Source: Catenulispora sp. EB89
Lineage (GTDB): Bacteria > Actinomycetota > Actinomycetes > Streptomycetales > Catenulisporaceae
NCBI RefSeq assembly: GCF_041261445.1
Contig: NZ_JBGCCU010000006.1
Coordinates: 124,001-188,000 of the forward strand
Length of the DNA stretch: 64,000 nucleotides
Direction: 5' to 3'
Of this stretch, positions 1,313 through 60,913 are shown one piece after another; positions within the stretch are counted from its first letter, which is position 1; the number at the start of each line of letters is the position of its first letter. The position numbers and the translations under genes are program-made. The notes under the pieces are model-generated. The model was given only the letters and a program-made list of their open reading frames with translations, was not told the origin of the DNA and ran no database searches.

Positions 1313-1591
1313 ATGGATGCGACCGTGGCGGAAGGCGAAACCCCACTGGACTCCGTGCGGACGTTCGTCGGCAGACACGTCGGCGAGGAGCCGGTCGCGG
1401 ACGACGACGACATCTTCGCCACCGGCAGGGTCAACTCGCTTTTCGCCGTCCAGCTGGTGATGTGGGTGGAGCGGACCTATGACATCGCAGTCGGCCCGGA
1501 GGAGTTGAACGTCGGCAATTTCAACTCCATAAGCGCGGTCGCGGACTTCATCAGTCACAAGACCGCCGCGCGCAGCGATCAGACCAGTTGA
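1313..1591 (+). CDS. Free-standing acyl carrier protein (FkbJ/ZmaH-like)
   Basis: A 92-aa acidic carrier protein preceded by a strong GGGAGGAAACG ribosome site. The phosphopantetheine serine is Ser42 in [12 protein letters not shown]. The NSLFA context, rather than the DSL of ordinary PKS carriers, is typical of the discrete ACPs that hold unusual extender units such as methoxymalonyl or aminomalonyl. It lies between the hydroxyacyl dehydrogenase and the MbtH gene in one rightward operon. The inferred role is to carry an amino acid (probably serine) loaded by the ligase at 32963 while it is oxidised to aminomalonyl, then to hand it to an AT-less PKS module. Carrier identity is secure; the cargo is inference. 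Confidence 0.85.
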
Positions 1592-18700: not shown

Positions 18701-20330
18701 GATAGTGGTCGCCCACGCCCGAGAACATGAACACTGTCGACCGAGCTCCCGAGGGGACCGTGCCGTCGAAAAGGTCGGCGGTTCCCGAGTCGAGCGCCGA
18801 GGCGGCAAATTCCGGATCCCGGGCTATCACCGCACGTCGATGTGCGAACCGCAATCGGCCAACCTGGAGAGTCCAGGCCACATCGGACAACTTGAGCCGC
18901 GGATCCGACCGCAACCGCGCGGCCAGTTCCCGCGACGACTGTCGCAAAGCCGCCTCCGATCGAGCTGACAGCACGATCGCCTGCGGATCGGCCTCACGTC
19001 CCGATCCGGTGGCCTCGCCGCGCTGCTCCAAAGCCGGTGGCTGTTCCACGATGACATGGGCATTCGTCCCTCCCAGCCCGAATGAGCTGACGCCGGCGCG
19101 GCGCGGACCGTCGACGGGCCACTCCCGCAAGACGGTGTTGACGAAGAAAGGGGTCGAGGCGAACTCGATGGACGGGTTCGGCCGGACGAAATTCAGGCTC
19201 GGCGGCACCAGGCCCGCCGCCACCGACAGCACCGTCTTGATCAAGCCTATGACCCCGGCGGCGGCGTCGAGGTGGCCGATGGCGGTCTTGACCGAGCCCA
19301 AAGCGCACCACTGGCCCGATCCGCCGCCGAAAGCCTCGGTGAGAGCCGTGACTTCAACAGGGTCCCCCAACGGGGTCGCAGCACCGTGCGCCTCGACGTA
19401 ACCGATGGTTTCCGGGGCAACCTCCGCCACCGCCAACGCCTCTGCGATCACCCGGGCTTGGCCTGACACACTCGGAGCGGTGAACCCCACCCGGTCGGCA
19501 CCGTCGTTGTTGACCGCCGAGCCCAGGATCACCCCCCGGATCGTGTCGCCTTCGGCCAGCGCGTCTTCCAGCCTCCGCAGCACCACCGCGCCGACGCCGC
19601 TCCCCGGCACCGTCCCGGTCGCGTCGGCGTCGAAGGCACGACAATGGCCGTCGGAGGATGCCACGCCGGTACCGCTGTCGAGATAGCCCTCGCCGGCGCC
19701 CCGCAGAGAGACCCCGCCTGCGAGCGCCATGTCACACTCACCGGAGAGAATCGACTGGCAGGCCAAGTGCACGGCCACCAGTGAGCTGGAGCAGGCGCTT
19801 TGCACGGTGATGGCCGGCCCGCGCAGGTCGAGCTTGTAGGCGACACGGGTGGCCAGGTGATCCTTGTCCAGCGAGATCATCAGCTCCAACGGGCTGACGT
19901 CATCGAGCTCAGCCAGGTTCGGAGCTATGTTGTTGAGGAGATACGAACTCAGACCCACCGCGCCGAAGACACCCACGTATGTGTCAGGATCAGTCGCGCC
20001 GTGGCCGGCGTCCTGCAACGCCTGGGCAGCACATTCAAGAAACAGCCGCTGCTGGGGATCGAGCATTTCGGCTTCCCTCGAGTGGTAGCCGAAATAGCCC
20101 GCGTCGAACCGGTCGAGATCCGGTAGGACACCCGCGCGCCGCACATAGCGAGGATCAGCCATCTCCGCCTCGGTCACACCGCTGGCGCGCAGGTCCTCCT
20201 CCGTCAAGTCGCGGATGCACTCCCGTCCTTCCGCGAGATTCGACCAGAAGGCCTCCGGATGCGCGGCGCCCGGGACACGGCAAGCCATGCCGATCACGGC
20301 GACTGCGTTCTTGACATCACTTCTGCGCAT
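15756..20330 (-). CDS. Type I PKS module: KS, AT (malonyl), KR, ACP
   Basis: A single PKS module of about 1524 aa. The KS has SACSSSL and KTAIGHLDAA; its second motif reads EAHGAATPLGD, unusual but with the histidine kept. The AT has GYSIGEY, where Tyr replaces the usual His before the nucleophile, and AFHSPMM, the malonyl-type signature. The KR has GGLGFVG and a complete S...YAAAN set, so a beta-hydroxyl is expected. The ACP (GGHSLVAT) is intact. Three ATGs are in frame; the one at 20330 is chosen because AAGGA lies seven bases upstream (20345 and 20333 are alternatives). The gene overlaps both neighbours, showing translational coupling within a single four-gene line. It would add one reduced C2 unit before the terminal protein. 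Confidence 0.92.
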   Translation of the reverse strand: MRRSDVKNAVAVIGMACRVPGAAHPEAFWSNLAEGRECIRDLTEEDLRASGVTEAEMADPRYVRRAGVLPDLDRFDAGYFGYHSREAEMLDPQQRLFLECAAQALQDAGHGATDPDTYVGVFGAVGLSSYLLNNIAPNLAELDDVSPLELMISLDKDHLATRVAYKLDLRGPAITVQSACSSSLVAVHLACQSILSGECDMALAGGVSLRGAGEGYLDSGTGVASSDGHCRAFDADATGTVPGSGVGAVVLRRLEDALAEGDTIRGVILGSAVNNDGADRVGFTAPSVSGQARVIAEALAVAEVAPETIGYVEAHGAATPLGDPVEVTALTEAFGGGSGQWCALGSVKTAIGHLDAAAGVIGLIKTVLSVAAGLVPPSLNFVRPNPSIEFASTPFFVNTVLREWPVDGPRRAGVSSFGLGGTNAHVIVEQPPALEQRGEATGSGREADPQAIVLSARSEAALRQSSRELAARLRSDPRLKLSDVAWTLQVGRLRFAHRRAVIARDPEFAASALDSGTADLFDGTVPSGARSTVFMFSGVGDHYPGMTAKLYQREPVFRAVIDECSQILAGHLGRDLRPLLLERARIDSTDHDKGGFRPAAVSGEANPEMDRTAVAQPLVFMAEYALGCLLLAAGVEPTAMVGYSIGEYVAACLSGVFTVEDVLELVARRASAIEDLPPGAMSAVLLDADSVTKTLSSDVSIAAEDGRYLTVIAGPAEAVAAAEAAFTEQGVATRRLRTEHAFHSPMMRPIAADLTGVVRRFELAAPRIPILSNVTGTWLTEPEAKSPEYWATHLHSTVRFADNLAELWRLPHPVFLEVGPGKALGSLVQQHPGRGDAPTGVVLSTLPSSSAALTDQADDHEHFTTALGRLWVAGVEVDWQGFHDRRADAAPHRVPLPTYPFERERYWVEPTAVDRCSSGSGRATDVAEWFYLPSWRRTAVPPSEAPESVLILGHGHQFSERLAARFSSGGARVITATDGDHHPVGSSVHHRVALTDRDDLERLLGLVCDDPGGMPDRIVHCVGASSPADSDELTALRSLFALGQAVSSRRAGAGTDICVITAYGQAVAGEPLLRPGNSAVAALARVVSQDLPGVTCRVIDLAHEGDPDRLAETIAGEIATAPDEPVVAYRGAERLVADYEQVRISQERKPVLRSGGVYALVGGLGFVGSNVARRLARTSGVRLAVIQRAPGTAEVAAVVAELETLGAEVAIFAADAADPAELRTALDGAVRRFGALHGVVHVAGLTAPEAFAGIEDVSADLVEAHFKPKAAVMRSLREALGDRRLDFCVVSSSLASVLGGIGHGPYAAANGYVDLFATQATRFGATPWTAVAWEAWDSGGPLPNGLRGQSLSEYVLSPAEGALAFDRVLASGFPPRLVNSTGPLRDRLDQWVTKTPRRAESEATPQGRMHNRPLLQTAYVAPRNATEETIAGLWAETLGLDRVGVFDDFFELGGHSLVATRIVARMVRSLSVSIPLGTFLRHPTVAGLAERIEVQSAAVEEGVPLTRVDRSRFRIGAGDMGESR

Positions 20331-23300
20331 CATCGTGTCCTTCATCGCAAGGCTCGAAAGGTCGCACCGGGCCGTCGGGACGGCCCCGCCGCTGTCGGGA
20401 CGCTTTCCGGCGGGCCTCAGCCCTCCGGCGGGCTGTCTGCGTGGCCGTGCTCACGTCCCCACGCACGGCGCCCGCCTGTGCGGCGACGGACGGACGGGCC
20501 AGGAGATCGGTGATCGTCAACTCGGCGAAACGCGGATCGTCACGGACGAGCCGAGCATGCAGCCTCAGCAACAGCAAGGAGTCCCCTCCGATGTCGAAGA
20601 AGTTCTCCTCGCGGCCGACTGCGTCCGCGCCTAGCACCTCGCACCAGGCCCGGGCGATTTGGCGCTCCGTGTCGTTCGCCATCACGGACTCAGGGCCCGG
20701 CACTGTGTGCACCGCCGGCGCGGACAAAGCCCGCCGATCCAGCTTGCCACTGGGCGACAACGGCAAGCGGTCCAGCAGCACCACGACTGACGGCACTGCT
20801 TGGGAAGGCAGCCTGGCCGCCATCAGCTCCTTGATTTCCTGCGGAGCCGGGCCGCCTTTCCGACAGACCACGTACCCGATGAGCCGTTCACCGCCATGAT
20901 GGCCCGCTATCACCGCAGCGGCCGCGTCCCGCACCCCGGGCAAAGCCCGCAAACCGGCTTCCACCTCGCCGAGCTCGATCCGTACGCCGCGGATCTTGAC
21001 CTGATCGTCGTCTCGTCCGAGGAACTCGACGTCGCCGGACTCGCCTCGACGCACCCTGTCGCCCGTGCGATACATCCGAGCCCCCGGGAACCCCTGAGGA
21101 TCCGGGACGAACCGCTCAGCGGTGAGGCCGGGGCGGCCGTGATAGCCGCGGGCGAGCTGGATGCCGGACAGGTACAGCTCTCCCGGGCAGCCCAATGGCA
21201 GTTCGCGAAGACCACCGTCCAGAACCCGCAGACGCGTGTTGGCGACCGGCGCGCCGATGGTCACGACCGGCCCGTCCGATGGACGGCACTCCCCCTCGGT
21301 GACATCGATGGCGGCTTCCGTAGGACCGTATTGATTAAACAACTTCGCCTGCGGCAGTTTCGCGAACACTCGATCGCGCAGCTCAGGAGTGAGCGCCTCG
21401 CCACCGCACAGCACCACCTTCAGACTGGGACAACATTCGGGGCCGATCGCGTCCAGGAAGGGGCCCAGCAAAGACGGAACCATCTGTATGACCGTGACGC
21501 CTTCGCGTTCGATCAACTCGACCAGGTAGCCGGGGTCCAGATGCCCCCCAGGCCGGGCTATGATGAGCGTCGCTCCTGCCGAGAGCGGCCACAGCACCTC
21601 CCGCACCGACACGTCGAATCCGGTGGGTGCTTTGACGAGCACGCGATCGGCTGCCCCCAGTCCATGGGCCTCTTGCATGACGCCTATACGGTTCACGAGA
21701 CCGGCGTGGGTGTTCACAACGCCTTTGGGCTCCCCGGTCGAACCGCTCGTATACAACAGGTACGCCGCGTGCGCCCCAGTGACCGTCTCGCTGCCGCTGC
21801 TCTCGACCACGGAAGCGTCCAGAGCCTCGTGGACGGAGATCGCGGGCACGCCGGCCGGCAGCAATTCCGGAGCGGGACTACCCACGACGACAGCCGGAGT
21901 CGCATCATCGAGCATCATGCGTATTCGAGCCGCGGGATAGGAGGGATCGACGCACAAGAAGGCCGCCCCCAGCCTCACGGCAGCCAGCATCGCGCAGACC
22001 AGGTCGATTCCGCGATCGAGACAGAGCGCCACGACGCTCTCCGGTCCTACGCCATAGCCGCTCAAATGTGCGGCGAGCCGCGCTGTCCGGGAACCGACCT
22101 CGCTGTAGCTGAAACCGACGCCCCCGTCGCGAACCGCCATCGCGTCAGCCCGGGTCCCCATGGCGACGTCGAGCCAGTCGGCCAGCGTACCCTCCGCGGT
22201 GAATCGGCCGCCGGTATCATTGATCCGATCGATCAGGGCACGTTCTTCGGCCGGGAGAACCTCTGTCTCCAGCGCGGATCGGTCGGACGCCAAGGCCACA
22301 AGCGCCTCACGCCAGCGCTGCGACCAGCGCCCACCGGCGAGGATCCGCCGATCGTAGGTGAATTCGGCTATGAGTTCATCATCGTTCTCGGTGCACGTCA
22401 GCATGGCGCCGTAGTGATCGGCTCCCGAAACCGCCGGCTCGGTGGAGTCGCCTCGGACGTGTCCGTAGCCGATCCAGACAGCGCCCGGCTCATTGGGGAC
22501 CTGGTTCGCGACGGCTGATCGACGGCGAGGCTGTTCGGCCAACACGCGGACGAGCGCGTGGCCGTTCGGCCGGTCCAACAAGCCAGGCGGCACGACCAGC
22601 ACTTCGTCATCCGACGCCTTGGACGCCGCCTCGGCGGGTATGCGAAGTCCGAAGCCGCCGTCCACCCCGCTGCACCGACCAATCACGACGGCGAGCGCGG
22701 CCAGGCAGTGCTGGGCAAGCGTGGAACCTGAACCGGCGACGTTCCCTCGGACCAAGGCCAGATCGGCGTCGGCCACCACGACGGTCTCCGTGGCCCGGCC
22801 GGTCTGCGGAGCAAGCGGAGGCGGCATAGGCGCGGGCATTATCGCGTGTGGCGCAGACGGAAACGATGCGAACCCATCCTCCACCAAATCCGTCAAGGCC
22901 CTGATGAACCCTCGGCCCAGCCGCGCTGCCTCCCCGGCATCGACATAGCGCTCGTCATGGATGAGTTCGACGGTCATCTCGTCGCCTGCCGGAAACCGGG
23001 AGACCGTGACGCACAGTGGCAGCTCGATCGGTTCGACCGCATCTTGGGCGAGCACCGTGACGGCTCCGCCTCCGACGTCGTTCAGGACCCGGAAGTGGAC
23101 ATAGTTGAAGAGCACATCGAAGGGCCGGACCCGGTGGTTCATCCGCTGGATCTCGGCGAGCGGGAACCTTCGGTAGGGCAGGACCTCAATCTCGTGCTCG
23201 AACACGGCTCCCAGATACTCCGCGGAACTGTCCGCCGTCATGGGGATCCGGAATGGAATCGTGTTGAGGAATACTCCCAACCCGGACTCGGCACCTCGTC

Positions 23301-31081: not shown

Positions 31082-32896
31082 TCAGCCGGCTGCCGCGTCG
31101 GCCACTTCCGCCAGTTCGCCGATCGTCTGGTTGCGGAAGAGATCGACCAGGGAGAACACCAGCCCGCGCTCCTCGGCCTGGGTCACGACACCGATGCATA
31201 GGATCGAGTCGCCGCCGAGGCTGAAGAAGTTGTCATCGACTCCCACCTCGGACAACCCGAGCACATCGCACCAGATATCGGCCAGGACCTTCTCCGTGTT
31301 GGTGGACGGCGGGCGCAGTGCCTCGAAGACGGCACCGCGGCCTGATGCCTGCCCCAGGAGCCTGTCCATGTCCGTCTTCCCGGTGGCCGTCAGGGGGAAC
31401 CGGTCGACCGCGAAGAGCCGCGTCGGAATCATGTACGAAGGCAGCCTCCGTTCCAGACGCTTCTTGATCTCCTCCGGCGCCGTGGGCTCGTCGCCCGCGG
31501 CTATGAAGAAGGCCACCAGCTGGGTGAAGCCGGAAGCGTCCACGCGTCCCGTGACCACCGCGTCCCGTATCCCGGGATCGGTACGCAACGCGTATTCCAC
31601 CTCGCCCGGCTCTACGCGGAAACCGCGCACCTTGATCTGACGGTCGAGCCTGCCCACGAACTCCAGGGCCCCGCCCGGACCGCGCCGAACGCTGTCCCCG
31701 GTCCGGTACAGCCGTGCACCGTAGGCCTCGGCGGAGGGATCCGGAACGAAACGCTCCGCCGTCAGCCCCGGACGGCCCAGGTAACCGTGAGCGACACCGC
31801 TGCCGCCGATGTACAGCTGCGCCGTCTCACCCGGGGACGATGGTTCGAGACCGTCGTCGTAGAGCCGCAGGCTTGTGCCACCGATCTCGCGTCCGATCGG
31901 AACGGCGGCGCCGTTCCGCACCGCTCCCGCCGGTAGGACCGCGCAGGTCGCGAAGGTAGTCGTCTCCGTCGGGCCATAGCAGTGGACGAGCCGCGAATCC
32001 CGCTGCCGGATGTTCAAAAGACGCTCGACGCGCTCTGCCGATGCCGCTTCCCCTCCGAACAGCAGCTGCTTCAACCCCGCCACCGCGCCGGGATCAACGT
32101 CGACCAGTTCATTGAACAGGGCAGTGGTGAGAAACATGGTGTCCGCTCCCAGAAGCGGGATCTGCTCGGTCAGATCCAACGCAGTGGTCCCGCTTTCAGG
32201 GAAGGCGACACATCCTCCGTTCAGAAGCGGTGCCCAGATCTCAAACGTGGCAGCGTCGAATCCGAGCGCCGCGAATTGCAGGACCACGGACCCTGGACCG
32301 AGGTCCAGAAACGGCAGACCATGGGCGAGCCGCAGGATGTTTCGATGAGACACGGCCACCCCTTTAGGCCGGCCGCTTGTTCCCGAGGTGAACATCACGT
32401 AGGCCAGGGAATCGCTGGTCGCCTGGTCACGAGTCCAAGGGAGGCCACCATCGCCGGCGGCGACCAGATCGTGGATCATCACCGTGCGTCGGCCGTCGGA
32501 CCTGAACGGCGCGGCGGTCGCCGGTTCCGCGATGATGAGCGACACGTGTGTGTCCTGGCACATCGCTTGTATCCGATCGGCCGGATACCCGGGATCCAGT
32601 GGAACGTACGCCGCTCCCGTCTTCAAAACACCCAGCATCCCGGCCACGAGTTCGGCAGATCCGCGCACCGCCAGGCCCACGAAATCCCCGGCCACGACTC
32701 CAAGCTCGGCGAGTGCGATCGCGACGCTATCGGCCTGCTTCTCCAACGCCGCATAGGTGATGCTGTACTCGGTGCCGCGCACAGCCGGAGCTGCGGGCTT
32801 CGACTGCGCATGTAAGGCGAACGCCGCCGGTACAGTCTGCATTCGCTCTCCTGCGGGACCACCCACGGATCGGGTTGGTGCCGTCGTCGCAGGCAT
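31082..32896 (-). CDS. Stand-alone NRPS loading didomain: A (Val/Ile-like code), PCP
   Basis: About 604 aa with only adenylation and carrier domains. The A domain has FTSGTSGRPKG, CYGPTETTTF, YRTGDSVRRG and the A10 lysine in TATGKTDMDR. Its specificity residues read D-A-F-M-L-G-C-T-F-K, close to valine/isoleucine codes such as D-A-F-W-I-G-G-T-F-K, so a small branched or hydrophobic amino acid is likely. The PCP serine is in GGDSILC. With no C domain it must deliver its amino acid to a condensation domain on another protein, possibly the C domain beside the dead A domain at 8665-15759. ATG 32896 was chosen; a GTG at 32962 directly after the upstream stop is also possible. It is last in the exporter-ACAD-ligase operon. 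Confidence 0.88.
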   Translation of the reverse strand: MPATTAPTRSVGGPAGERMQTVPAAFALHAQSKPAAPAVRGTEYSITYAALEKQADSVAIALAELGVVAGDFVGLAVRGSAELVAGMLGVLKTGAAYVPLDPGYPADRIQAMCQDTHVSLIIAEPATAAPFRSDGRRTVMIHDLVAAGDGGLPWTRDQATSDSLAYVMFTSGTSGRPKGVAVSHRNILRLAHGLPFLDLGPGSVVLQFAALGFDAATFEIWAPLLNGGCVAFPESGTTALDLTEQIPLLGADTMFLTTALFNELVDVDPGAVAGLKQLLFGGEAASAERVERLLNIRQRDSRLVHCYGPTETTTFATCAVLPAGAVRNGAAVPIGREIGGTSLRLYDDGLEPSSPGETAQLYIGGSGVAHGYLGRPGLTAERFVPDPSAEAYGARLYRTGDSVRRGPGGALEFVGRLDRQIKVRGFRVEPGEVEYALRTDPGIRDAVVTGRVDASGFTQLVAFFIAAGDEPTAPEEIKKRLERRLPSYMIPTRLFAVDRFPLTATGKTDMDRLLGQASGRGAVFEALRPPSTNTEKVLADIWCDVLGLSEVGVDDNFFSLGGDSILCIGVVTQAEERGLVFSLVDLFRNQTIGELAEVADAAAG

Positions 32897-32962
32897 CTCC
32901 ACAATATCGTCCTTTCGGCCGGGATGAACCAAGACCGCCGCGTACGGCGCCTCGGGAGGCAC

Positions 32963-34126
32963 TCACAGCTCGATCGGCCAAGCCCGCGGGTCGAGCCCAT
33001 GCCGGGCCACGAACGCGAGTACGAAACGTTCCAGTCCGAAGCCCACACAGGCTGTATATGCGACGTCTTGGTCTTCGGCTCGGATGGCGAACGCTTCCCC
33101 GAAGAACCGCTCGTGGAAGTTGAAAGATCCCACGGCGACCTCGCGACCCGCGCCGACGCCCAGGATCAATTCGTATTTGAGTTCATGCATACGCTGAGAC
33201 CAAGCCTTGGAAGCACTGTCTCCCAAGAAGAACGGATCGCTGGCGACTTCGCAGCGCCCTGACAGACCCAGTTCCTCGACCAGACCCGCGGCGGCCTGGA
33301 GGAACCGGCGGCGGCAGTCGACGACGAACTCGCGGGATCCGACGAACACGGTCTCGCGAATGGTGAAGTTCCACAGGCGTTCGAGCCCTCGCCGGTAATG
33401 TGATTCGAAGCGGAACGACTTGCCTCGTGCCGTATACGTACTACCGGCCTGCGGCACCGTGGTCGCTGAAAGCTGTTGATATGTGTGAAAGCACATGGTA
33501 GGCGGGAGCGAGTAGTCGGTATTCCGACAGAAGTCGAGGATACGGACCGCTTCGGGATCTGCGCGAACCTCCCGCCCGAAAGCGTTATACACGTCCATGT
33601 CAGTGTGCAGTCTGGTGACGAACATCAGATGTTGGGGGAAAGACTCGAGATAACCGCAACGACGCAGGGTCTCGGTCGCGATCACCGTCGGATACTGATA
33701 TTCGACCCCGCCCAGTTCGTCCACCGCTATCCGGCGGAGACGGCCGTCGAGGTAGGCGGCCAGCGGAATGAGCGGATCGGACAGCGCCACCATGCCCTCG
33801 CCCATCTCCACAGCGGCACCGGCAGCGATCATCGCGGCGAAGGGGTCGTCTTCCGTCAAGGGAACCGACGTCGTCGTCCACAAGACCCGGGGCTCCACCA
33901 CGCGCTGCATGACCACATCGTTGACCGCCATGGCGTTGACCTTCCGCGCCAGATCATCGATCGCGGTCCCCGGAGAAACGATCAATGCGACGGCCACTAC
34001 GTCCCTGTCGCTGCGTACCAGGGTGAAGTCCGAAATCGCGGCGGAGACGAAGAGTATCCGCTTGGCGAGCTCGGGTTCCAGCCGGAGCGGAACCGGCGTT
34101 TCCAGCTCGACGATCGTCTCAGTCAC
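32963..34126 (-). CDS. Amino acid:[carrier protein] ligase (seryl-tRNA synthetase-like)
   Basis: A 387-aa class II aminoacyl-tRNA synthetase-like protein without the tRNA-binding coiled coil of true SerRS. Motif 2 is visible as RGLERLWNFTIRETVFVG and motif 3 as CVGFGLERF (about 361-367). MCFHTYQQL and the Cys in YTACVGFG fit the zinc-binding cysteines of the family. Known relatives activate glycine or alanine with ATP and load them on small carrier proteins instead of tRNA. The GTG start overlaps the acyl-CoA dehydrogenase stop, and the product is the natural partner of the free ACP at 1313. Given its SerRS ancestry and the two oxidising enzymes in the cluster, I infer that it makes seryl-ACP for aminomalonyl-ACP; glycine or alanine remain possible. 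Confidence 0.85.
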   Translation of the reverse strand: MTETIVELETPVPLRLEPELAKRILFVSAAISDFTLVRSDRDVVAVALIVSPGTAIDDLARKVNAMAVNDVVMQRVVEPRVLWTTTSVPLTEDDPFAAMIAAGAAVEMGEGMVALSDPLIPLAAYLDGRLRRIAVDELGGVEYQYPTVIATETLRRCGYLESFPQHLMFVTRLHTDMDVYNAFGREVRADPEAVRILDFCRNTDYSLPPTMCFHTYQQLSATTVPQAGSTYTARGKSFRFESHYRRGLERLWNFTIRETVFVGSREFVVDCRRRFLQAAAGLVEELGLSGRCEVASDPFFLGDSASKAWSQRMHELKYELILGVGAGREVAVGSFNFHERFFGEAFAIRAEDQDVAYTACVGFGLERFVLAFVARHGLDPRAWPIEL

Positions 34127-35273
34127 CGGTGGGCACTCCGATCAGCGTGGCGATGATGTTCCGCTGGATGTCCGAGGTGCCCGCGTAGATCCGGCCCGCC
34201 AGTGCGTCCCGTACTTCACGTTCGATTCCGTACTCACTCACATAACCCCGCGCTCCATAGACTTGTTGAGCGTCCAAGCTGCTTGCCACAGCGCTCTCAC
34301 TGATGTACAGCTTGGCGATTGCCGACTCCAACAAGGCCACCCGGCCTTCGCCCTTGAGCCAGGCAGCTCGATACAACGCCAAACGGCTGAGCTCAGCACG
34401 TATCCGCATATCCGCAATCTTGTGCGAAACCGCCTGATACGAACCGATCGGACGCCCGAATTGCCTCCGGGAGCCCGCGTAGGCGGCGGCATCCTCGGCC
34501 ATCCACTCCAGAGCCCCGACCTGTGGCGCGAACATGAAGATCCGTTCCCACTCGATCCCTGAGGTGAACAGCCCATAACCGCCGCCGATACCGCCGAGAA
34601 TCGCTTCGGCCGGTACCCGGCAGTCCCTTAGCAAGACCCGCCCCATCGACGTGGCTCTCACTCCTGGTTTCGACAGACCGGTGACCTCCAACCCTGCCGT
34701 CCCCCGAGGGACCAGGAAGGCTGTCAGCGCCGACTGAGAGCGTTCTTGGGCGGTCCGGGCGAACACGATGAAGACATCGGCATCCACCGCGTTGCTGATG
34801 AAGGTCTTCGTCCCGTTCAGCGCATAGCCGCCGGCGACGGCCTGCGCCGTGGTGCTCAGCGCCATGACGTCGGATCCGGCATCCGGTTCGGTCAGCGCCT
34901 GGGACCCGACCAGCGACCCGTCGGCCAAGCCGGGCAGAAACCGCTGTTTCTGCTCCTCCGTACCGTGTGCAAGAATGTGCACGGCGCACGCCCACAACTG
35001 ATTTCCGATAGCGAAGACCAGCCCGTTGTCCCGGCAGCCATATCCCAGCGCCTCCAAGCCGATCGCGATCGAAAACGGGTCCAGGCCGGCCCCACCGTAT
35101 TCCGGAGGTATCGGCCAGCCGAGGATGCCGAACCGTGCGCATTCGCGCCATTCTTTGAGCGGCAAGCGAGCCGACTCATCGGATTCCGCCGCGGTGGTTC
35201 CGAGGCATGTTCGCGCGAACTCGCGCACCCGACTGCGCAGAGCCCGCTGATCGGCTGTAAGGCGAAAATCCAT
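34119..35273 (-). CDS. Acyl-CoA dehydrogenase family flavoenzyme (ZmaI/FkbI-like)
   Basis: A 384-aa FAD enzyme with ALTEPDAGSDV, GTKTFISNA, RRQFGRPIGSYQAV and the C-terminal YAGTSDIQRN motif. The Glu that is catalytic in medium-chain dehydrogenases (YEGT) is Ala here; a Glu in the IEWERIF helix could serve instead, as in isovaleryl-CoA dehydrogenases. Homologs in zwittermicin and FK520 clusters oxidise carrier-bound intermediates of unusual extender units. The gene overlaps the carrier-protein ligase by 8 bp, which ties it to carrier-bound amino acid chemistry rather than fatty acid oxidation. The proposed reaction is oxidation of the serine-derived aldehyde to the carboxylate of aminomalonyl-ACP. 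Confidence 0.85.
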   Translation of the reverse strand: MDFRLTADQRALRSRVREFARTCLGTTAAESDESARLPLKEWRECARFGILGWPIPPEYGGAGLDPFSIAIGLEALGYGCRDNGLVFAIGNQLWACAVHILAHGTEEQKQRFLPGLADGSLVGSQALTEPDAGSDVMALSTTAQAVAGGYALNGTKTFISNAVDADVFIVFARTAQERSQSALTAFLVPRGTAGLEVTGLSKPGVRATSMGRVLLRDCRVPAEAILGGIGGGYGLFTSGIEWERIFMFAPQVGALEWMAEDAAAYAGSRRQFGRPIGSYQAVSHKIADMRIRAELSRLALYRAAWLKGEGRVALLESAIAKLYISESAVASSLDAQQVYGARGYVSEYGIEREVRDALAGRIYAGTSDIQRNIIATLIGVPTGD

Positions 35274-35285
35274 CTCACTCCATGG

Positions 35286-36641
35286 TCATGAGGTGGCGGT
35301 CGTCACGGCGGCGCCGGAGTCCAGTGACGATTCGCCGGTGGGAAGCTCGTGCAGCGACCAGACCGACGATCCGATGAAGCCGAGTGTGGCCAGATTCCAG
35401 GACACCGCGGCGATCAGCAGTGGCATGCGATATCCATGGTGCGCGGCGAGTTGGCCACCGATCAGCGCTCCAATCGGCATCATGCCCCAGCCGAGCATGG
35501 TCATAGTGGACCCGATCCGCCCGAGCATCCGGGTCGGGACCGAGGCCTGCATCACGCTTTGCATCGATGCGTTGAAAACCGGGGAGAACAGGCCGGCCAC
35601 CGCGAAGGGCAGCACGATGAAAGGAATCGAAACCGCCCCGCGGGGCAGGAAGGGGATCAGCAGCATCGGCAGATTGCCCACCAGCGAACTGACGATCATG
35701 GAACGCCCGACGCCGGTCCGGCGGATGACCGTGGGCGCGGTCAGAGCCGCCGCCAGGCTGACCGACCCGTAGAAGACCAGCGGCAGGCCGAGGAACCCGG
35801 CCGAGATTCCCAAGTCGCGGACGGCGAAGAGTACGAAGACCGCGTTCCAGACCCCGTTCGCAAAGTTGCCGAACGCGGCGACCGCGATCATGGGGCGCAG
35901 ATACCGGCTCCGGAGAAGGACGTCGAGCCCTTCTTTGATCTGAGCGAAGTGTGACCCCGCTTCACTGTCCCCAGCCTGTCCTTCTTCCCGTATGGGCGTC
36001 AGGACCAAGATAAGCGCCGCGATTGTCCATGTCGTGCAGTCCACCACGATCGCGGTCGGCGCGCTGAGCAGAGCAACCAAAGCCCCTGCCAATCCCGGCC
36101 CGACGGCCATGGCGAGTGACTGGCTCATCCGGATGAGGCTGTTGGCCTCAAGGAGATGGTCCGGCCCCACCAGCGTCGGCACGATCGCCGGGCCTGCCGA
36201 GGTATTGAAGACCGAAGCAGTGCCGACCCCGCCGGCCACGGCGAACAACATCCACACGTGCAGAACACCCGCCGCATGCGCGATCGGAATGACGGACAGC
36301 TGCAAAGCACTCGCGACCGCGCTGAGCATGAGGACCGAACGCCGCTTGAGCCTGTCGACCCACACCCCCGCGGACAGACCGATCACGAGCCACGGCACCC
36401 ATTGAGTCGCCTCGAGGAGTCCGACTTGGAACGCGCTGGCGTGGAGGGTGATGACGGCAGTGAGCGGCAGCGCCAGCCCGGTGACCGCGGTTCCCATCAG
36501 TGAGATCGTGGCCGAGGCCCAGACCCTGGCGAATTGGGGCTCGGTCCGCAAGACACCCAACGGCAGCCGGCGCAGCAGTACCCGGCCCCCCGTCCTATCG
36601 ACGGTCGAGGTGGTCTTGTCGGCCATCCAAGCCCCCTTCAT
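35286..36641 (-). CDS. MFS efflux transporter
   Basis: A 451-aa integral membrane protein with about twelve hydrophobic segments and the MFS loop motif GVWVDRLKRR between helices 2 and 3. It resembles the enterobactin-exporter/macrolide-efflux type of the superfamily. As first gene of the operon carrying the extender-unit and A-PCP genes it is the likely exporter or self-resistance pump for the product. Two starts are plausible: ATG 36641 with CTAAGGA just upstream, and ATG 36626 with AAGGGGG six bases upstream. Confidence 0.9.
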   Translation of the reverse strand: MKGAWMADKTTSTVDRTGGRVLLRRLPLGVLRTEPQFARVWASATISLMGTAVTGLALPLTAVITLHASAFQVGLLEATQWVPWLVIGLSAGVWVDRLKRRSVLMLSAVASALQLSVIPIAHAAGVLHVWMLFAVAGGVGTASVFNTSAGPAIVPTLVGPDHLLEANSLIRMSQSLAMAVGPGLAGALVALLSAPTAIVVDCTTWTIAALILVLTPIREEGQAGDSEAGSHFAQIKEGLDVLLRSRYLRPMIAVAAFGNFANGVWNAVFVLFAVRDLGISAGFLGLPLVFYGSVSLAAALTAPTVIRRTGVGRSMIVSSLVGNLPMLLIPFLPRGAVSIPFIVLPFAVAGLFSPVFNASMQSVMQASVPTRMLGRIGSTMTMLGWGMMPIGALIGGQLAAHHGYRMPLLIAAVSWNLATLGFIGSSVWSLHELPTGESSLDSGAAVTTATS

Positions 36642-36882
36642 GCATCCTTAGAGTATTTACGCACGCGACCGCAACCTATCACAACACTCAGACGACGGAT
36701 ACATCAACCCTGACGAGTCTGCCCATGACGTCGAGAAAACGTCACCGAGTCCTCGACACCGGGTTCTACCTCCCTACGCAGCAGGCTAGCGCGTCGTACG
36801 TCGCCAGCGGCGGCATCGGCGAAGACAGTACGACTCAGCCAGACTGTTGCACAGAATCTCTAGGCTGCTTAAAGTCTCCAGC
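36642..36882. promoter_or_regulatory. Divergent region between exporter and Dap operons
   Basis: No gene is seen. TAGAGTATTTA lies at 36649-36659 (reverse complement TAAATACTCTA, just ahead of the exporter start) and is identical to 315-325 in the first divergent promoter. No matching -10/-35 pair is convincing. Confidence 0.3.
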
Positions 36883-37983: not shown

Positions 37984-37984
37984 T

Positions 37985-39016
37985 ATGAGCACTTCGATAT
38001 TGTATTTATCCGAACACGAAGTCACTGTGGCACTCCGTTCCTGTGATGCGGTGAAGGCGGTGGCCGAAGCCCTCATGGCCCATTCACGGGGTGAAACCTT
38101 GCTCCCGGCCGAAGCCGCGCTCCGGTGGACATCGCCTGATGGCGAACCGGCACGCAGTCTGGCCTTGCCTGGCGGCGTCCCAGCGGACCCCTTCGCCTAT
38201 GGGATAAAGATCATTAATGCTTCGCTCGGCAATGTGCGACGAGGACTTCCCCGGGCCAGCGGACTGACGCTCATGTTCGACGCGCAGACAGCACGAGTGG
38301 CCGCTGTTTTGGCGTCCGGCCCGATCTCCGCTACACGGACCGCGGCCGTTTCGTATCTCGCCGTCCGCGAACTGTCCACCCGGTCGGCGCACGATGTCGC
38401 CATCATCGGAGCCGGAGCTTTGGCCCGAGCCCATATGGATCTGGTCTCCGAGCAGATGCCGCAGTTCGAGACCTTCCATGTTTTCGACATCGAACGCGGA
38501 CGTGCGGAAGCCCTCGCGGAAGAGTATCGCGAACGGCTGAAGGGCCGTGGCGCTCAGATACAGCTTGCGCGATCTGCCGAAGAGGCGGTCAGGGCCGCAG
38601 ACGTCGTCATCCCCGTCACGACCACGAACCAGGGGTACATCGAGTACGCCTGGCTGCGGCCGGGAGCCCTCGTGATCAACGTCTCCCTGGACGACGTCCA
38701 ACCGGAGGTCATCATGCGGGCCGACCGGCTGGTCGTGGACGACTGGTCACTTGTCGCCGACGACACGACTCGTGTACTGGGGCGGCTGATCCGCGCCAGG
38801 AGCGTCGTCGCTCCCGGCGCCGAACCGGCCGATGGCGGACGGCGGGTGGACGCCGAACTCGGCGCGGTCCTGGCTGGAACCGCGCCCGGCCGAAACCGTG
38901 AAGAAGAGCGTGTCGTCGTCAACCCCTTTGGGATGGGTATCGGAGATGTGGCCGTGGCCGACGCCGTGCTCCGCACCTCCCGCTCTCTCGGTCTCGGAAT
39001 GGAGTTGGAGCGTTGA
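37985..39016 (+). CDS. sbnB: SbnB-like 2,3-diaminopropionate-forming dehydrogenase (ornithine cyclodeaminase family)
   Basis: A 343-aa member of the ornithine cyclodeaminase/mu-crystallin family with the substrate lysine region YGIKIINASLGN, ISATRTAAVS, and a Rossmann site VAIIGAGALARAH. SbnB-type enzymes oxidatively cleave the SbnA product to Dap, alpha-ketoglutarate and ammonium with NAD. The gene starts one base after the SbnA stop and ends overlapping the next gene (TTGA). This tight triplet of genes indicates that Dap, or a Dap derivative, is a monomer of the product. Confidence 0.9.
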   Translation: MSTSILYLSEHEVTVALRSCDAVKAVAEALMAHSRGETLLPAEAALRWTSPDGEPARSLALPGGVPADPFAYGIKIINASLGNVRRGLPRASGLTLMFDAQTARVAAVLASGPISATRTAAVSYLAVRELSTRSAHDVAIIGAGALARAHMDLVSEQMPQFETFHVFDIERGRAEALAEEYRERLKGRGAQIQLARSAEEAVRAADVVIPVTTTNQGYIEYAWLRPGALVINVSLDDVQPEVIMRADRLVVDDWSLVADDTTRVLGRLIRARSVVAPGAEPADGGRRVDAELGAVLAGTAPGRNREEERVVVNPFGMGIGDVAVADAVLRTSRSLGLGMELER

Positions 39017-40761
39017 ATCGAACGCGTCATGAATCTCAAGCTGTCGGCAATCCCGGACCGGAGATTCCGACCTTGTCTGAGACGGTCGCGGCCCAAGCCC
39101 TCCTGACACCGGACGCACCGGCGCTCGAAGATGCCGATGGTGTCTTGACATACGGCGAATTGCACCGGTCTATCGTCTCCTCAGCGTGCATGCTGCTGGA
39201 AGCCGGAATCGGCTCCGAGGAGATCATCGGGGTTTGGGGAGACCGGACACGGCAAGCGATCACGGCGATCCTGACGGTGCTCGCGGCCGGAGCGGCCTTC
39301 CTCCCGTTGGATTCGGCATACCCGCTCGAACGGCTGGACATGATGGTGCAGGACTCTGGGACCCGCGTGGTCCTGGGAGACGGTCCTGAGCTCCGCAGCC
39401 GCGTTCGCACCATTCCATTCGAGCAGCTGGCTTCTCTACCCGCCGCGAAGGCGGTTCTCCGGCCGCCGCCTTTGGACAGTCTGGCTTACGTCATCTACAC
39501 ATCAGGGTCAACGGGTCGGCCCAAGGGCGTTATGGTCCCGCACCGCGGTATCTCCAACGTCATCGCCGCCCAACGGGAGATACTCAATCTGAGCCCGTCC
39601 GACCGCGTCCTGCAGTTCGCTTCGTTCAGCTTCGACCCGATCGTGTTCGAAATGGCTCTCGCGTTCGGCGCCGGCGCAACCCTCGTCCTGGCACCGCGGC
39701 CTCACCTACGTCCGGGCGAGCCGTTAGCGGCCACGCTGGAAAACCGCGACGTGACAGTAGTCGTCGTACCACCTTCGAGCCTCGCGGTCACTCCCGTGCC
39801 TCACAACCCGATCCTCACCACCATCTTCGTCGGTGGAGAAGCCTGTTCCGAGCATGTCGCAGAGCGCTGGCGCCAGCAGCGCCGGTTCTTCAACGGATAC
39901 GGCCCGACCGAAGCCACGATCTGGAACACCACCGAGTTGGTGGAAGACCCGGGAACACCGTCGATCGGACACCCGAACAGCGGCGTGACCGCGACGGTAT
40001 TCGACGACGACCTCCAACCCGCGCCCTGCGGCGCCACCGGCGAACTCTACCTCGGCGGCGTCCAGGTGGCGCGCGGGTACCTTGGCGATCCGCGGCTGAC
40101 GGCCGAGAGGTTCGTACCTGACCCCGGCGGTCACGGTGCGCGCATGTACCGCACAGGCGATCTCGTCACCGCTGGCGAAGATCACCGCCTGCACTTCCTG
40201 GGCAGGTCCGACAATCAGGTCAAGGTCCGCGGCTTCCGCATCGAGCTCGGTGAGGTCGAAGCGGCGTTGACCAGGATACCCGGAATCCTCGAAGCGGTGG
40301 TGGCGGTCACCGAATTCGACACTGTCAAACGTTTGACAGCTCACTACCAGAGCGAGAGCATCATTGATCACGTCACGCTGAGGAATCAGCTGATCGAGTG
40401 GCTGCCCCTGCACCTGGTCCCGGGAGTATTCACGAGGTGGCCGGAGCTGCCCAGAACGCCCAACGGGAAGATAGACCGGGATCTCCTCTGGACAGCGACA
40501 CCATCGACGACCGCGTCCCCCTCCCCCGACATAGAAACCACGCTGGTGCGGCTCTTGTGCCGGATCTGCGCCCGAGTACTCGCCATCGCCTCCGTCGATC
40601 CCGAGCAGGACTTCTTCGAACAAGGCGGGGACTCCCTGCTGGCCACCCAGTTCGTGAACCAGATTCGGGACGTGCTCAACGTCAAGGTGACGTTGATGGA
40701 TGTCTTCGATGCCGAGAGTCTGCGACAGCTGAGCGACACCCTGTCCAGTCGGCTGACCTGA
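39013..40761 (+). CDS. Stand-alone NRPS loading didomain: A (unassigned code), PCP
   Basis: A 582-aa A-PCP protein starting at a TTG that overlaps the SbnB stop, with GGAGTTGGAG just upstream. The A domain has YTSGSTGRPKG, GYGPTEATIW, YRTGDLV and the A10 lysine (TPNGKIDRD). Specificity residues read D-P-F-V-F-G-G-I-W-K, a hydrophobic pocket that does not match a code I know. The PCP serine is in GGDSLLAT. Position directly after the Dap genes suggests Dap as substrate, but the pocket does not look polar, so this is uncertain. Like the A-PCP at 31082, it has no C domain and must act in trans. The next gene is a free N-methyltransferase that probably methylates its bound amino acid. Confidence 0.88.
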   Translation: MNRTRHESQAVGNPGPEIPTLSETVAAQALLTPDAPALEDADGVLTYGELHRSIVSSACMLLEAGIGSEEIIGVWGDRTRQAITAILTVLAAGAAFLPLDSAYPLERLDMMVQDSGTRVVLGDGPELRSRVRTIPFEQLASLPAAKAVLRPPPLDSLAYVIYTSGSTGRPKGVMVPHRGISNVIAAQREILNLSPSDRVLQFASFSFDPIVFEMALAFGAGATLVLAPRPHLRPGEPLAATLENRDVTVVVVPPSSLAVTPVPHNPILTTIFVGGEACSEHVAERWRQQRRFFNGYGPTEATIWNTTELVEDPGTPSIGHPNSGVTATVFDDDLQPAPCGATGELYLGGVQVARGYLGDPRLTAERFVPDPGGHGARMYRTGDLVTAGEDHRLHFLGRSDNQVKVRGFRIELGEVEAALTRIPGILEAVVAVTEFDTVKRLTAHYQSESIIDHVTLRNQLIEWLPLHLVPGVFTRWPELPRTPNGKIDRDLLWTATPSTTASPSPDIETTLVRLLCRICARVLAIASVDPEQDFFEQGGDSLLATQFVNQIRDVLNVKVTLMDVFDAESLRQLSDTLSSRLT

Positions 40762-40796
40762 TCGGGACTCGGCGACGCCGCGTCGAAAGGTGAACC

Positions 40797-46000: not shown

Positions 46001-48134
46001 GATCGAGCAATGCCGAGTGCGCCGCCGCCGCGATGGGCACCCTGCGCACTTCCACCTGCTGCACCTGGAGCTTCCGCTCGAATGCGTCGATATCCTGATG
46101 GCTCCCCGAGACCACAGTGAAGTCGTCGGTATTGATCGCCGCGATGGACAAGCCCGCAGGCAAGACCGCGGCGACCGCGGAAGCGGGCAATGCCACGCTG
46201 AGCATCGTCCCGTCCGCACGGTCCAGCACCTGCGATCTCGCTTCGACCGCGGCGGCCGCGGTCCGCAGGTCGAAGACACCGGCGGCCAGCGCAGCCGAAT
46301 ACTCTCCCAGACTGTGACCGATCAGTGCCGCGGGCCGCACACCTCGGGCGAGCAAGGCCTCGGAAAGCGCGTATTCGAAAGCGAAGATCGCCTGCAGCGT
46401 GATGGAAAAGGGCACGGCGTCCCGCACTTGGTCCACGAGGAATCGGCGTACCGAAGCCCGAGTGTGTTCGCTGTAGGCTGCGACACATTCTTCCAGTCGC
46501 TGACGGAATATCGGTTCGGACGCCATCAGAGCCGTAGCGGCCCCGGCGTGAAGTGTCCCGCCGCCCGGGAACATGAAGACCACGGGAAGCTCCGCACCCG
46601 ACCGCCGGGTACCGCCGGACACGCCGAGTTCTGAAATAAGCTGCTCCACGCTCCCCGCGGCGAAGGCACTGCGATATTCCATCGGCCGGCGGCCACGGGC
46701 CAGGGTGAAGGCGACGTCCGCGAGTCCGGTCGTGCCGCTTGCGGCGAGATGATCGGCGAGCTGGCGGCGTCGGCGGTCGACCGCTTCGGCACTGGCCCCG
46801 GACAGCATGATGACTTCCGGGACATGAGCCGAGTCGGGTGCCGACCGCACGGGCGGTTCTTCGACGACCACGTGGGTATTGGTGCCGCCGATCCCGAAGC
46901 TGCTCACCCCTGCTATCCGCAAGCCGGCCGTTTCCCATTTCTCGAGCTTCCGGCAGATCTCGAAAGGCGATTCGTCCAATCGGAGCTCGGCATTGGCCTC
47001 CTCGAAATGCATTGTCGGCACGAAGAGCCCGTCACGAACCATAAGGCAGGTCTTAATGAAGCCTGTGATACCCGCTGCGATGTCGAGATGCCCGACATTA
47101 CCCTTCACCGAGCCCAGCCGGACCAGGTTGTCGACGCCTGCGAATACCTGTCGAAGCGCGGCGATCTCGATCGCGTCACCCAACGCGGTGCCGGTGCCGT
47201 GGGCCTCGATATAGCCAACTTCGGAAGCCTTCAACTCCGCGGTCCGGTGGGCATCGCCGACCGCTCCGGCCTGGCCCACCGCGCTCGGCGCGCTATAGCT
47301 GACCTTTTCGCTTCCGTCGTTGTTGAAGCCGTATCCGCGCATCACGGCGTGAATCGTGTCCCGATCGGCCACCGCATCGTCCAGCCGTTTCAAGACCACC
47401 GCGGCGACGCCGTTGCCGGGCACGGTGCCGCCCGAACGCCGGTCGAACGGCCGGCACCGTCCATCCGGCGAGAGTATTCCGCCGCTGGTATAGATGTATC
47501 CCCTGACTTGAGGTGTTTTCACCGCCGCGCCCCCCGCGACGGCCAGGTCGCAGTCACCGGCGAGCAGACTCTGCGCCGCCAAGATGACGCTCAAGAGCGA
47601 AGTGGAACACGCCGACTGGACCGTCATGGCGGGTCCCGTCAAGTTCAACTTGTACGCTGCCCGTGTCGCCAGGAAATCGTTGTCGTTCCACAGCGAGACC
47701 CGCCAGGCCTCATCAGAGTCCGGATCCGTCGGAACAGCGAGCCGCGAGACGTGGGTATTGGTGCCCGCGCCGGCGAACACACCCACTCGTTGCGCGCCGG
47801 CAACACTGTATCCGGCATGCTCCAGCGCAGACCACACCACATGCAAGAAACGTCGCTGCTGAGGATCCATCACAGCCGCTTCACTCGGCGCGATTCCGAA
47901 GAACGCGGCGTCGAAGTCTTCGGCGTGCTCCAGCGTCCCACGGGCCGCTACGTAGCCGGTCGACCGGATTCGGACCCGATCGCCGCCGGCAGCCACGAGC
48001 TGCTCCTCGCTGAACCGGCTCAGGCATTCCTCGCCTTCCTTCAACCGCGACCAGAGCTCGTCGACCGTACTCGCGGCTGGGAACTCGCCCGCCATTCCGA
48101 CGACCGCGATCTCGGTGCCTCGGGATACGGTCAT
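43020..48134 (-). CDS. Type I PKS terminal module: KS, AT, KR, ACP, TE
   Basis: A 1704-aa protein starting at an ATG that overlaps the upstream NRPS stop. The KS (SACSTSL, EAHGTGT, KGNVGHLDIA) is intact. The AT has GHSLGEY but an unusual specificity motif (AAAAHSALL instead of HAFHS or YASHS), so its extender unit is uncertain, though malonyl is most likely. The KR (GGLGRIG; SSNAG..., GAYAAAN) looks active. The ACP (GGHSLLGV) is followed by a type I TE with GGWSFGG (about residue 1513) and a distal HASI histidine. This is the second TE-terminated module in the window; fed by the NRPS at 48131 it would release a Ser-Gly-type chain extended by one reduced C2 unit. Confidence 0.92.
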   Translation of the reverse strand: MTVSRGTEIAVVGMAGEFPAASTVDELWSRLKEGEECLSRFSEEQLVAAGGDRVRIRSTGYVAARGTLEHAEDFDAAFFGIAPSEAAVMDPQQRRFLHVVWSALEHAGYSVAGAQRVGVFAGAGTNTHVSRLAVPTDPDSDEAWRVSLWNDNDFLATRAAYKLNLTGPAMTVQSACSTSLLSVILAAQSLLAGDCDLAVAGGAAVKTPQVRGYIYTSGGILSPDGRCRPFDRRSGGTVPGNGVAAVVLKRLDDAVADRDTIHAVMRGYGFNNDGSEKVSYSAPSAVGQAGAVGDAHRTAELKASEVGYIEAHGTGTALGDAIEIAALRQVFAGVDNLVRLGSVKGNVGHLDIAAGITGFIKTCLMVRDGLFVPTMHFEEANAELRLDESPFEICRKLEKWETAGLRIAGVSSFGIGGTNTHVVVEEPPVRSAPDSAHVPEVIMLSGASAEAVDRRRRQLADHLAASGTTGLADVAFTLARGRRPMEYRSAFAAGSVEQLISELGVSGGTRRSGAELPVVFMFPGGGTLHAGAATALMASEPIFRQRLEECVAAYSEHTRASVRRFLVDQVRDAVPFSITLQAIFAFEYALSEALLARGVRPAALIGHSLGEYSAALAAGVFDLRTAAAAVEARSQVLDRADGTMLSVALPASAVAAVLPAGLSIAAINTDDFTVVSGSHQDIDAFERKLQVQQVEVRRVPIAAAAHSALLDPGLPGFRSHMASTSFHRPKTPLISNLTGDWADAAQFTDPDYWVRQLREPVNFAAGIRTALSLEPTPILVEVGPGHDLSSLVSRAKGSREGVVTVCPPDRDDSRLVALAVARVWEYGATIHGIEDRTTPRGRVPLPTYPFANDRQPSAGAEPPRARPLDDWFYAPVWRPSVSPLSLSAGAAGRILLAGLSDPGDLAALLGLADHEVTVAHRMPGGHWVGMPEDPAWRPTTVVFGVDDEPCGDPVEGEADRAAGFLELVRRFDGDSASRIRFVIVGNGLHEVNGGDCVCPERRQLAGLCISLAQELEWFDWIILDPGSDPANAADPGTLVAEISADSTDRVVAYRGAHRFVRNFVQVGLRSEPGPRVPAAGKTYLLTGGLGRIGQLLVSHLIDKVGANVVLLSRRRPEDTPPYTRDAAAVRHVSGDVSRVEDVRRAVEEAKRSFGRLDGVFHLAAVTRGRSVPRRGSATDREDLLEQLLPKVGGARALAEVLAGTELDFCVLFSSNAGVLGGLGLGAYAAANAVLDGFSSEAGRRTATRWVTVSWDGWPGVGATSFRDGGRSSLDAFELSAEEAIEAMGRVLAAEGLSWIVVSRGSFEDRQRLWVAERGLARPGHVDQARSRVSSDSEDEAGRNPAIPDGERIDDESRDGIERVLCRLWSEVLGIEATPRTDFFNQGGHSLLGVRLLRRIEEETGVALPPYVIAHAPTPGRLAPLVAAPGSVALVELAARSGPPLILIHPQGGGVLSYAPLADALGDISVLACDDNRLTVQDPSTSSVEELAARHVRTIKQAAVKGPYRIGGWSFGGVVAYEVARQLRSEGEQVRLLLIDSPAPTGDLFPISTEEDLMSTLIWNWLRQAGVYPAHSYSEFLSLAPEERDKAARDAAAAAGMHSLVRALDDAQGDGILRRTVSVAAAHGAELNAYRPDSSDIEALLVRATRQHDGPLAAVRDHETDLGWGSLLQSLTVISADGDHASILARPEVRTVALAVRRWLL

Positions 48135-60529: not shown

Positions 60530-60913
60530 GGCGAGGATCACCGACCTTTCCCGAGCGAATGTCGGCGCGGCGATCGCCGCGCCAGAACAGCGATCCCCGG
60601 CCAGACCCCGCAACTGTCGTCTGGGACCCGAACCTCACCCTGCCCCGGTGGCCGATTGCTCCGAACAGCCCACAATCGCGCCCAGCATCAGCGAAATCGC
60701 TCGCAGTAACGTCGATTTCAACTCTGCATCAAGTACTTGACGGATGGGCCCATGCAGAGCGTCCATGGATGCCGCACCGAATGATCCATCGGATTTCGCC
60801 CGCGGGCGATCCGATGCCTTGACGTCAACTGCTAACGATTCACTTCTCGGCCTGCACGTCCCGCGCAGGCCAGACCACGCCTAACTCATTCGCTACTGAC
60901 AAGGGGGGCCTGC
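60530..60913. other. Divergent spacer between the two integrases
   Basis: 384 bp with no convincing gene. It must hold both integrase promoters, but no clear hexamers are seen. A GGGG-rich ribosome site (AAGGGGGGCC) lies just ahead of 60914. Confidence 0.5.

Follow-up and report, generated by a model that had tools for sequence, protein, structure and literature searches.

A seryl-tRNA-synthetase-like ligase as the predicted loading enzyme of a proposed aminomalonyl-ACP pathway in Catenulispora and other actinomycetes

The 64,000-nucleotide stretch of DNA analyzed here (the window; positions 124001-188000 of contig C6) belongs to the 11.9 Mb genome of Catenulispora sp. EB89 and carries a hybrid nonribosomal peptide synthetase/polyketide synthase (NRPS/PKS) cluster. 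The cluster encodes a ligase related to seryl-tRNA synthetase (SerRS), which is predicted to start the synthesis of the extender unit aminomalonyl-ACP. In the proposed scheme the ligase would use ATP to activate L-serine and move it to the phosphopantetheine arm of a free acyl carrier protein (ACP, 1313-1591), a 3-hydroxyacyl-CoA dehydrogenase (HAD) would oxidize the β-hydroxyl of the seryl-ACP to an aldehyde, and an acyl-CoA dehydrogenase (ACAD) would oxidize the aldehyde, in its hydrated form, further to the acid, so that aminomalonyl-ACP results. The GYSIG acyltransferase (AT) of a KS-AT-KR-T protein (20345-15756) would then pass the aminomalonyl unit into the chain. This scheme, taken as a whole from the ligase to the AT, is considered quite probable. 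The genes concerned are the following:

32963..34126, minus strand: SerRS-like, predicted amino acid:carrier-protein ligase, 387 residues, GTG start, class II core intact
34119..35273, minus strand: ACAD of the prolyl-carrier-dehydrogenase type, 384 residues, ATG start, Glu243 in WERIF and no Glu in IYAGT
372..1286, plus strand: HAD, matching 3HCDH_N (E 3e-49) and 3HCDH (E 1e-31)
1313..1591, plus strand: free-standing ACP, 92 residues, PP-binding match E 2e-6, best NCBIfam model PRK07081 with 36 of 72 bits
17901..18734, minus strand: AT domain of the KS-AT-KR-T protein 20345..15756, carrying GYSIG...HAFH and predicted to accept the extender from the ACP

The original prediction had described an ACAD coupled to the ligase by an 8-bp overlap, and both open reading frames (ORFs) exist and share positions 34119-34126. 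The HAD and ACP equivalents that it placed at 372-1591 are real genes according to their family matches. An ACAD is present at 34119-35273 as claimed, but it is of the prolyl-carrier-dehydrogenase type and not of that found in FkbH cassettes. The SerRS-like carrier-protein ligase is recognizable from its matches to PRK07080, SerRS and Bll0957, although these fall below the curated cut-offs.

The ligase matches the NCBIfam model PRK07080, “amino acid--[acyl-carrier-protein] ligase” (E 3e-47), the serine--tRNA ligase models PRK00960 (E 2e-35) and TIGR00415 (E 2e-28) and, in the PDB, Bll0957 (E 1e-34) and the SerRS of M. kandleri (E 2e-24). It is a homolog of PRK07080 that lies outside that equivalog by score. 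The catalytic core of class II aminoacyl-tRNA synthetases (aaRS) of the SerRS type is present, and Cys212, Glu241 and Cys360, which we take to be the zinc-site positions of the relatives, are invariant in the alignment of 36 close and 25 distant ligases. With the Bll0957/PRK07080 ligases it has in common the class II core, this Cys-Glu-Cys set, Lys317 and the fold (27–28% identity in structural alignment), but it differs from them by an N-terminal domain of its own, by its link to extender-unit genes and by its sub-cut-off score. It is predicted to acylate a carrier protein rather than tRNA. The characterized relatives of the ligase load Gly or Ala. In one account, amino acid:carrier-protein ligases are grouped under SerRS, GlyRS and AlaRS, and add Ser, Gly and Ala (PMC9437257). 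The N-terminal domain of ~75 residues (33902-34126, minus strand) is modeled confidently as strand-helix-strand-strand-helix (pLDDT 88) and has no PDB match at E ≤ 0.001; it is typical of the close ligase clade and missing from most distant ligases. The viral contigs searched contained no relative.

One scan of species genomes gave five ligase loci. Across the class, ligase searches found matches at E ≤ 1e-3 in 35 of 394 genomes; within five families, searches at E ≤ 1e-50 found them in 2/14, 9/341, 0/35, 9/250 and 10/394 genomes, the centre genomes being part of both kinds of search. The plasmid loci L118, L119 and L121, which are among 30 of 87 records listed, were included, and three duplicates, recognized by contigs of identical size (L003=G852, L005=G539, L006=G767), were set aside. 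In all, 36 close loci were compared; the stretch examined around each varies from 16 to 64 kb, and presence or absence of a gene refers to that stretch throughout. The rows are partly non-independent, with close relatives in G606/G623/G627, L003/G914, G664/G662, G057/G1240 and G401 with the paralog on contig C16 of the window's own genome. The 36 close ligases form a single clade (99/99) apart from 25 distant ligases, one further distant row having been dropped from the tree as too short.

In 18 of the 36 loci, window included, the ACAD adjoins the ligase and a HAD and an ACP are also present (group I), in 17 of the 18 within ~3 kb. Measured between gene centres, the ligase and the ACP are at most 2 kb apart in the other 17 loci of group I and 32 kb apart in the window. 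These genes are ordered HAD-ACP-ACAD-ligase-AT in L003, L004, L118, L119, G449, G664, G662 and G914, and ACAD-ligase-HAD-ACP in L005, L007, G606, G623, G531, G627, G837, G1082 and G1048. The ACADs of group I show 47–58% identity, the window's own not counted, and by their ligases the loci do not make up one clade among the 36. Group II (7/36: G057, G384, G095, G842, G1240, G1016 and G1136) has a HAD and an ACP, and an ACAD with 32–35% identity in five loci and none in view in two. Group III (11/36) has no match to the window HAD or ACP. As a control, surroundings of ≤1.5 kb around distant ligases contain a HAD in 0/26, an ACAD in 1/26 and an ACP in 1/26; in six distant loci with ~20 kb in view there is no HAD, one partial ACAD match and one ACP, and two of the six have weak ACAD-like matches of the other ACAD type.

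Cassettes with FkbH serve as a second control. In L122, L123, L124 and L126 a HAD, an ACP, an ACAD and a “HAD-IIIC family phosphatase” stand in a row, the last being read as FkbH by its family and place. L125 contains the ACAD and the phosphatase, with the HAD ~7 kb away, and the unannotated L127 and L128 have HAD, ACAD and FkbH matches in the order of the other FkbH cassettes. Because FkbH holds that place in otherwise like-ordered cassettes, the ligase occupies the slot of the loading enzyme. No FkbH is found in the window with five annotated FkbH-type proteins as queries (E ≤ 1e-5), as had been claimed. A single group I locus, G1082, has an FkbH match, and there is none in the rest of the 36 close loci. 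G1082 contains, besides the ligase cassette, an FkbH-like protein (52% identical to that of L124) that comes after another ACAD; a single HAD, a KS-AT protein with GYSIG and a discrete AT with GHSLG/RPFH lie in its stretch.

In the window HAD, Ser138, His159, Glu171 and Asn209 are all in place, and its start codon may be internal to the called ORF. The four residues are retained in 17/17 readable group I rows and in 7/7 of group II. In L004 (Nocardia, 7665-8543) the HAD match extends over 293 residues with one stop in the aligned reading, which may reflect an error in the sequence or a broken gene, and this row was not scored. The presumed attachment serine of the ACP is Ser42 in VNSLF (1436-1438). 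The best PDB match of the ACAD is the prolyl-ACP dehydrogenase 4irn (E 4e-100), presumably AnaB, and its best NCBIfam models are those of PigA and RedW, under the NCBIfam cut-offs. The Glu of the W/Y-E-R motif, which we take to be the catalytic base of these ACADs, is present and the Glu of IxEGT is absent in 18/18 group I ACADs, while the reverse pattern is seen in 5/5 group II and 3/3 FkbH-cassette ACADs. The branch of group I ACADs (100/100) also includes two ACADs located beside A-domain/carrier genes, that of L120 and the second one of L119.

According to PMC4207774, the AT motif is GYSLG in ZmaF, which uses aminomalonyl-ACP, and GYSFG in ZmaA-AT, which uses hydroxymalonyl-ACP, as opposed to GHS in the CoA-fed ATs listed there. 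The window has three ATs, with GHSIG (29572 ORF), GHSLG and AAAH (48134 ORF), and GYSIG and HAFH (20345..15756). In the second of these (45783-46580, minus strand), AAAH stands in place of HAFH/YASH and resembles the GAAH given for ZmaA-AT in PMC4207774. Of the 18 group I loci, 14 have a GYS[ILV]G AT (the window, L003, L004, L005, L007, G449, G664, G531, G662, G837, G914, G1082, L118 and L119). These are all the group I loci with an AT found by tblastn, and in 11 of them the GYS[ILV]G AT lies at most 2.5 kb from the ligase; tblastn finds no AT in G606, G623, G627 and G1048. The counts are based on tblastn because a motif pattern scan missed the ATs of L118 and L119 and gave a GHSAG in G1048 that tblastn does not support. 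Group II ATs with a readable motif are GHSxG, except one GYSLG on the other strand in G1016. The FkbH cassettes L123, L124, L126, L127 and L128 possess GYS[LI]G ATs as well, and GYSxG was accordingly rejected as a proof of aminomalonyl; L122 has GHSIG and L125 no AT in view.

The claim that the ligase replaces an adenylation (A) domain as the loader gains support from the cassettes in 18/36 loci, from the GYSxG AT in 14/14 loci with an AT in view and from FkbH in the ligase slot. Given this conserved co-occurrence, the AT, the slot and the presence of both loaders in G1082, loading is very probably the role of the ligase. The sequences themselves show the genes with their catalytic motifs, the co-occurrence, the AT signature and the slot shared with FkbH. 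A HAD needs a β-hydroxyl and an extender AT needs a malonate-type acid, and serine is the only proteinogenic amino acid whose C3 oxidation leads to aminomalonate. We therefore infer that serine would be the best fit for a HAD-ACAD sequence ending in an extender unit; the order of the oxidations, the product and this ACP as the partner are likewise putative.

A stand-alone serine A domain had been reported missing, and indeed the window and the 18 kb to its left yielded no such A domain; however, a serine-type A domain does exist inside module 1 of an NRPS. The codes were read by hand from the sequence, assuming the GrsA position numbering and code-to-amino-acid assignments. The one serine-type code among those read, DVWHMSLVDK, belongs to a C-A-T module of the NRPS 54529..48131. 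Further codes, none of them serine-like, are DVRQLGQIDK (24231 ORF), MDWVLSVDVK (5086 ORF) and DVWLLGGIAK (left flank, where an A-containing protein lies 1.4-4.4 kb from the window). No code was obtained from the degenerate A region of the 16032 ORF. The 12 kb right of the window (L011) show no A-domain match.

Several observations weigh against the aminomalonyl scheme. With respect to the ligase, its scores are below the curated cut-offs (161 of 357 bits for PRK07080, 23.8 of 29.3 for PF00587), the solved relative Bll0957 is titled a glycine:[carrier protein] ligase, a comparison of the pocket via conserved positions favors neither serine nor glycine, and the modeled active-site region falls below pLDDT 50 in places (241-250, 298-310). 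The window HAD-ACP pair is located 32-33 kb from the ACAD-ligase pair on the opposite strand, unlike in the other 17 group I loci, and the aligned HAD of L004 is interrupted by one stop. The ACAD differs in type from those of FkbH cassettes, with 31% identity and the Glu at another position, so other chemistry is possible. The GYSxG AT is distant from the ligase in G531 (20 kb), G1082 (9.5 kb) and the window (15 kb), and GYSxG marks ACP-fed hydroxymalonyl and aminomalonyl ATs alike, as PMC4207774 indicates, so that by itself it carries no “amino” signal. The cluster does include an A domain of the serine type, and 11 of the 36 close ligases have no HAD in view, six of these 11 with a weak ACAD-like match.

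Some of these points fit other schemes better. The similarity of the ACAD to 4irn, PigA and RedW, with the same type of Glu position and no IxEGT Glu, and the six group III ligases that have a weak ACAD-like match and no HAD, would agree with the ligase loading serine for HAD and ACAD to end in another serine-derived unit, such as an aldehyde or a dehydrogenated aminoacyl group. Plain α,β-desaturation, however, would make the HAD superfluous, and the GYSxG AT, which requires a malonate-type acid, occurs in all 14 cassette clusters that show an AT; this outcome is regarded as unlikely. Still less likely is the loading of Gly or Ala onto this or another carrier, with HAD and ACAD acting on a different substrate. 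The title of Bll0957 points in this direction and the sequence leaves a Gly/Ala pocket possible, but a Gly- or Ala-loaded ACP offers nothing for the HAD to oxidize, and the four genes co-occur in 18/36 loci, 17 of which have no FkbH match.

The SbnA/SbnB-like genes of the window (36847-39016) raise the question of 2,3-diaminopropionate as the loaded amino acid. SbnA-like matches occur in 3 of the 18 cassette loci (the window, G837 and G1048) and near the ligase in L006 and G783, both without a HAD, but not in the other 15 cassette loci; the HAD requires a hydroxyl, and a separate A-T protein stands beside SbnA/B in the window, which leaves this option very improbable. The serine-type A domain of the NRPS 54529..48131 could in principle mean that serine reaches the ACP in trans, from NRPS module 1 or from an A-T didomain, with the ligase serving otherwise. 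That domain is embedded in a C-A-T module, and it is the ligase that is the conserved neighbor of the ACAD, together with HAD and ACP; such a supply in trans is hardly to be expected. Loading of serine by the ligase, followed by oxidation to aminomalonyl-ACP, is thus the preferred scheme.

Group II may represent the pathway in an independent version. The HAD of G095 lies 7 kb away, on the other strand. In G057, G384, G842, G1016, G1136 and G1240 (L041-L044, L105, L108, L110, L111) the ACAD is FkbH-cassette-like in 4/6, and ATs with LPAHSPAI or LPAHSAAI are present in G384, G842, G1016 and G1136. The 11 close ligases with no HAD in view (group III) point to additional functions of the clade, and perhaps of ligase-ACAD pairs that lack a HAD. 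One of them is a second close ligase (43%) encoded by the window's own genome, on contig C16 (L008, 13597-16456), followed by an ACP of its own and a nucleotidyltransferase-like protein, with a weak ACAD-like match upstream and no HAD; a nearly identical ligase is found in G401, of the same genus. The close ligases of L006 and L103 (G783) have no HAD/ACP match and are near SbnA-like genes, and perhaps another amino acid is loaded there.

Family scans of the window proteins covered the larger or suspected ORFs only. Other features of the cluster are:

35286..36641, minus strand: MFS-type transporter, encoded upstream of the ACAD-ligase pair in the same direction; TIGR00900 is its best model, with a score below cut-off
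31082..32962, minus strand: A-T didomain directly downstream of the ligase, hand-read code DAFFLGCTFK, not serine-like
48131..54529, minus strand: NRPS C-A-T-C-A-T, A1 serine-type (DVWHMSLVDK), A2 glycine-type (DILQWGVIWK), hand-read
39013..40761, plus strand: A-T didomain, code DPFVFGGIWK
36847-39016: SbnA/SbnB-like pair for 2,3-diaminopropionate, under NCBIfam cut-offs

The order on the minus strand is transporter, ACAD, ligase and A-T didomain, the end of the ligase abutting the start of the didomain, which is probably another loading unit of the assembly line. On the plus strand, an MbtH follows the HAD-ACP pair, and the SbnA/SbnB-like pair, an A-T didomain and a methyltransferase protein make up a second precursor block (36847-42335). 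The last PKS/NRPS protein (8665-16032, minus strand) contains C, a degenerate A region, T, KS, KR, T and TE with no recognizable AT, and its module would apparently depend on an AT and an A domain supplied in trans. The cluster probably extends leftward beyond the window, where ~1.4-11 kb away (L010) and at window positions 1-294 an A-T protein and formyltransferase-like, PabA-like amidotransferase and amidinotransferase-like proteins were named by eye. At the right end (59099-62491) two integrase-like proteins on opposite strands, also named by eye, possibly belong to an integrated element.

Colibactin, with clbD/clbF, represents another aminomalonyl pathway. In that of zwittermicin, ZmaG, ZmaH, ZmaI, ZmaJ and the AT ZmaF are involved, and serine is loaded by the seryl-AMP-forming ZmaJ, as described in PMC4207774 and PMC6395733. 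The window resembles it in the free ACP, HAD, ACAD and GYSxG AT, a likeness by description and not by ZmaG/ZmaI sequence; the plasmid records listed (40 of 811, 40 of 105 and 60 of 375) include no zma entry, a sample too small to imply absence from the collection. It differs in having an aaRS-related ligase where zwittermicin has the A-domain enzyme ZmaJ, and an AT in cis (GYSIG) where ZmaF is discrete. The FkbH cassettes for hydroxymalonyl-/methoxymalonyl-ACP have HAD, ACP, ACAD and loading enzyme in a row like group I, but FkbH sits in the place of the ligase and the ACAD is of another type in the three compared. The nearest characterized ACADs, the prolyl-carrier dehydrogenases PigA, RedW and AnaB, differ from that of the window, which is beside a SerRS-like ligase and has a HAD in its cluster. 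Among the matches listed in the open literature, which leaves most subscription journals outside, no paper joins a SerRS-like ligase with aminomalonyl. What appears to be new here is that both the loading enzyme and the ACAD type have been exchanged in a pathway of otherwise known design, and that this arrangement is so widespread.

It seems likely that this is a second route to aminomalonyl-ACP, found across at least five named actinomycete families and recruited at both ends from aminoacyl-carrier chemistry: a class II aaRS-derived ligase takes the slot of FkbH/ZmaJ and a prolyl-carrier-type dehydrogenase that of FkbI, while HAD, ACP and the GYSxG AT are kept. The ligase is annotated as “hypothetical protein” in two Streptomyces plasmids, and such clusters may therefore be overlooked; the ACAD-ligase pair together with a GYSxG AT would provide a genome-mining handle for clusters whose products bear an α-amino group in the polyketide part. 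A loader free of A domains might also be a tool to bring aminomalonyl units into engineered synthases. If the scheme is true, an enzyme of the aaRS fold would feed a polyketide extender pathway, which would give the carrier-protein ligases a concrete biosynthetic role.

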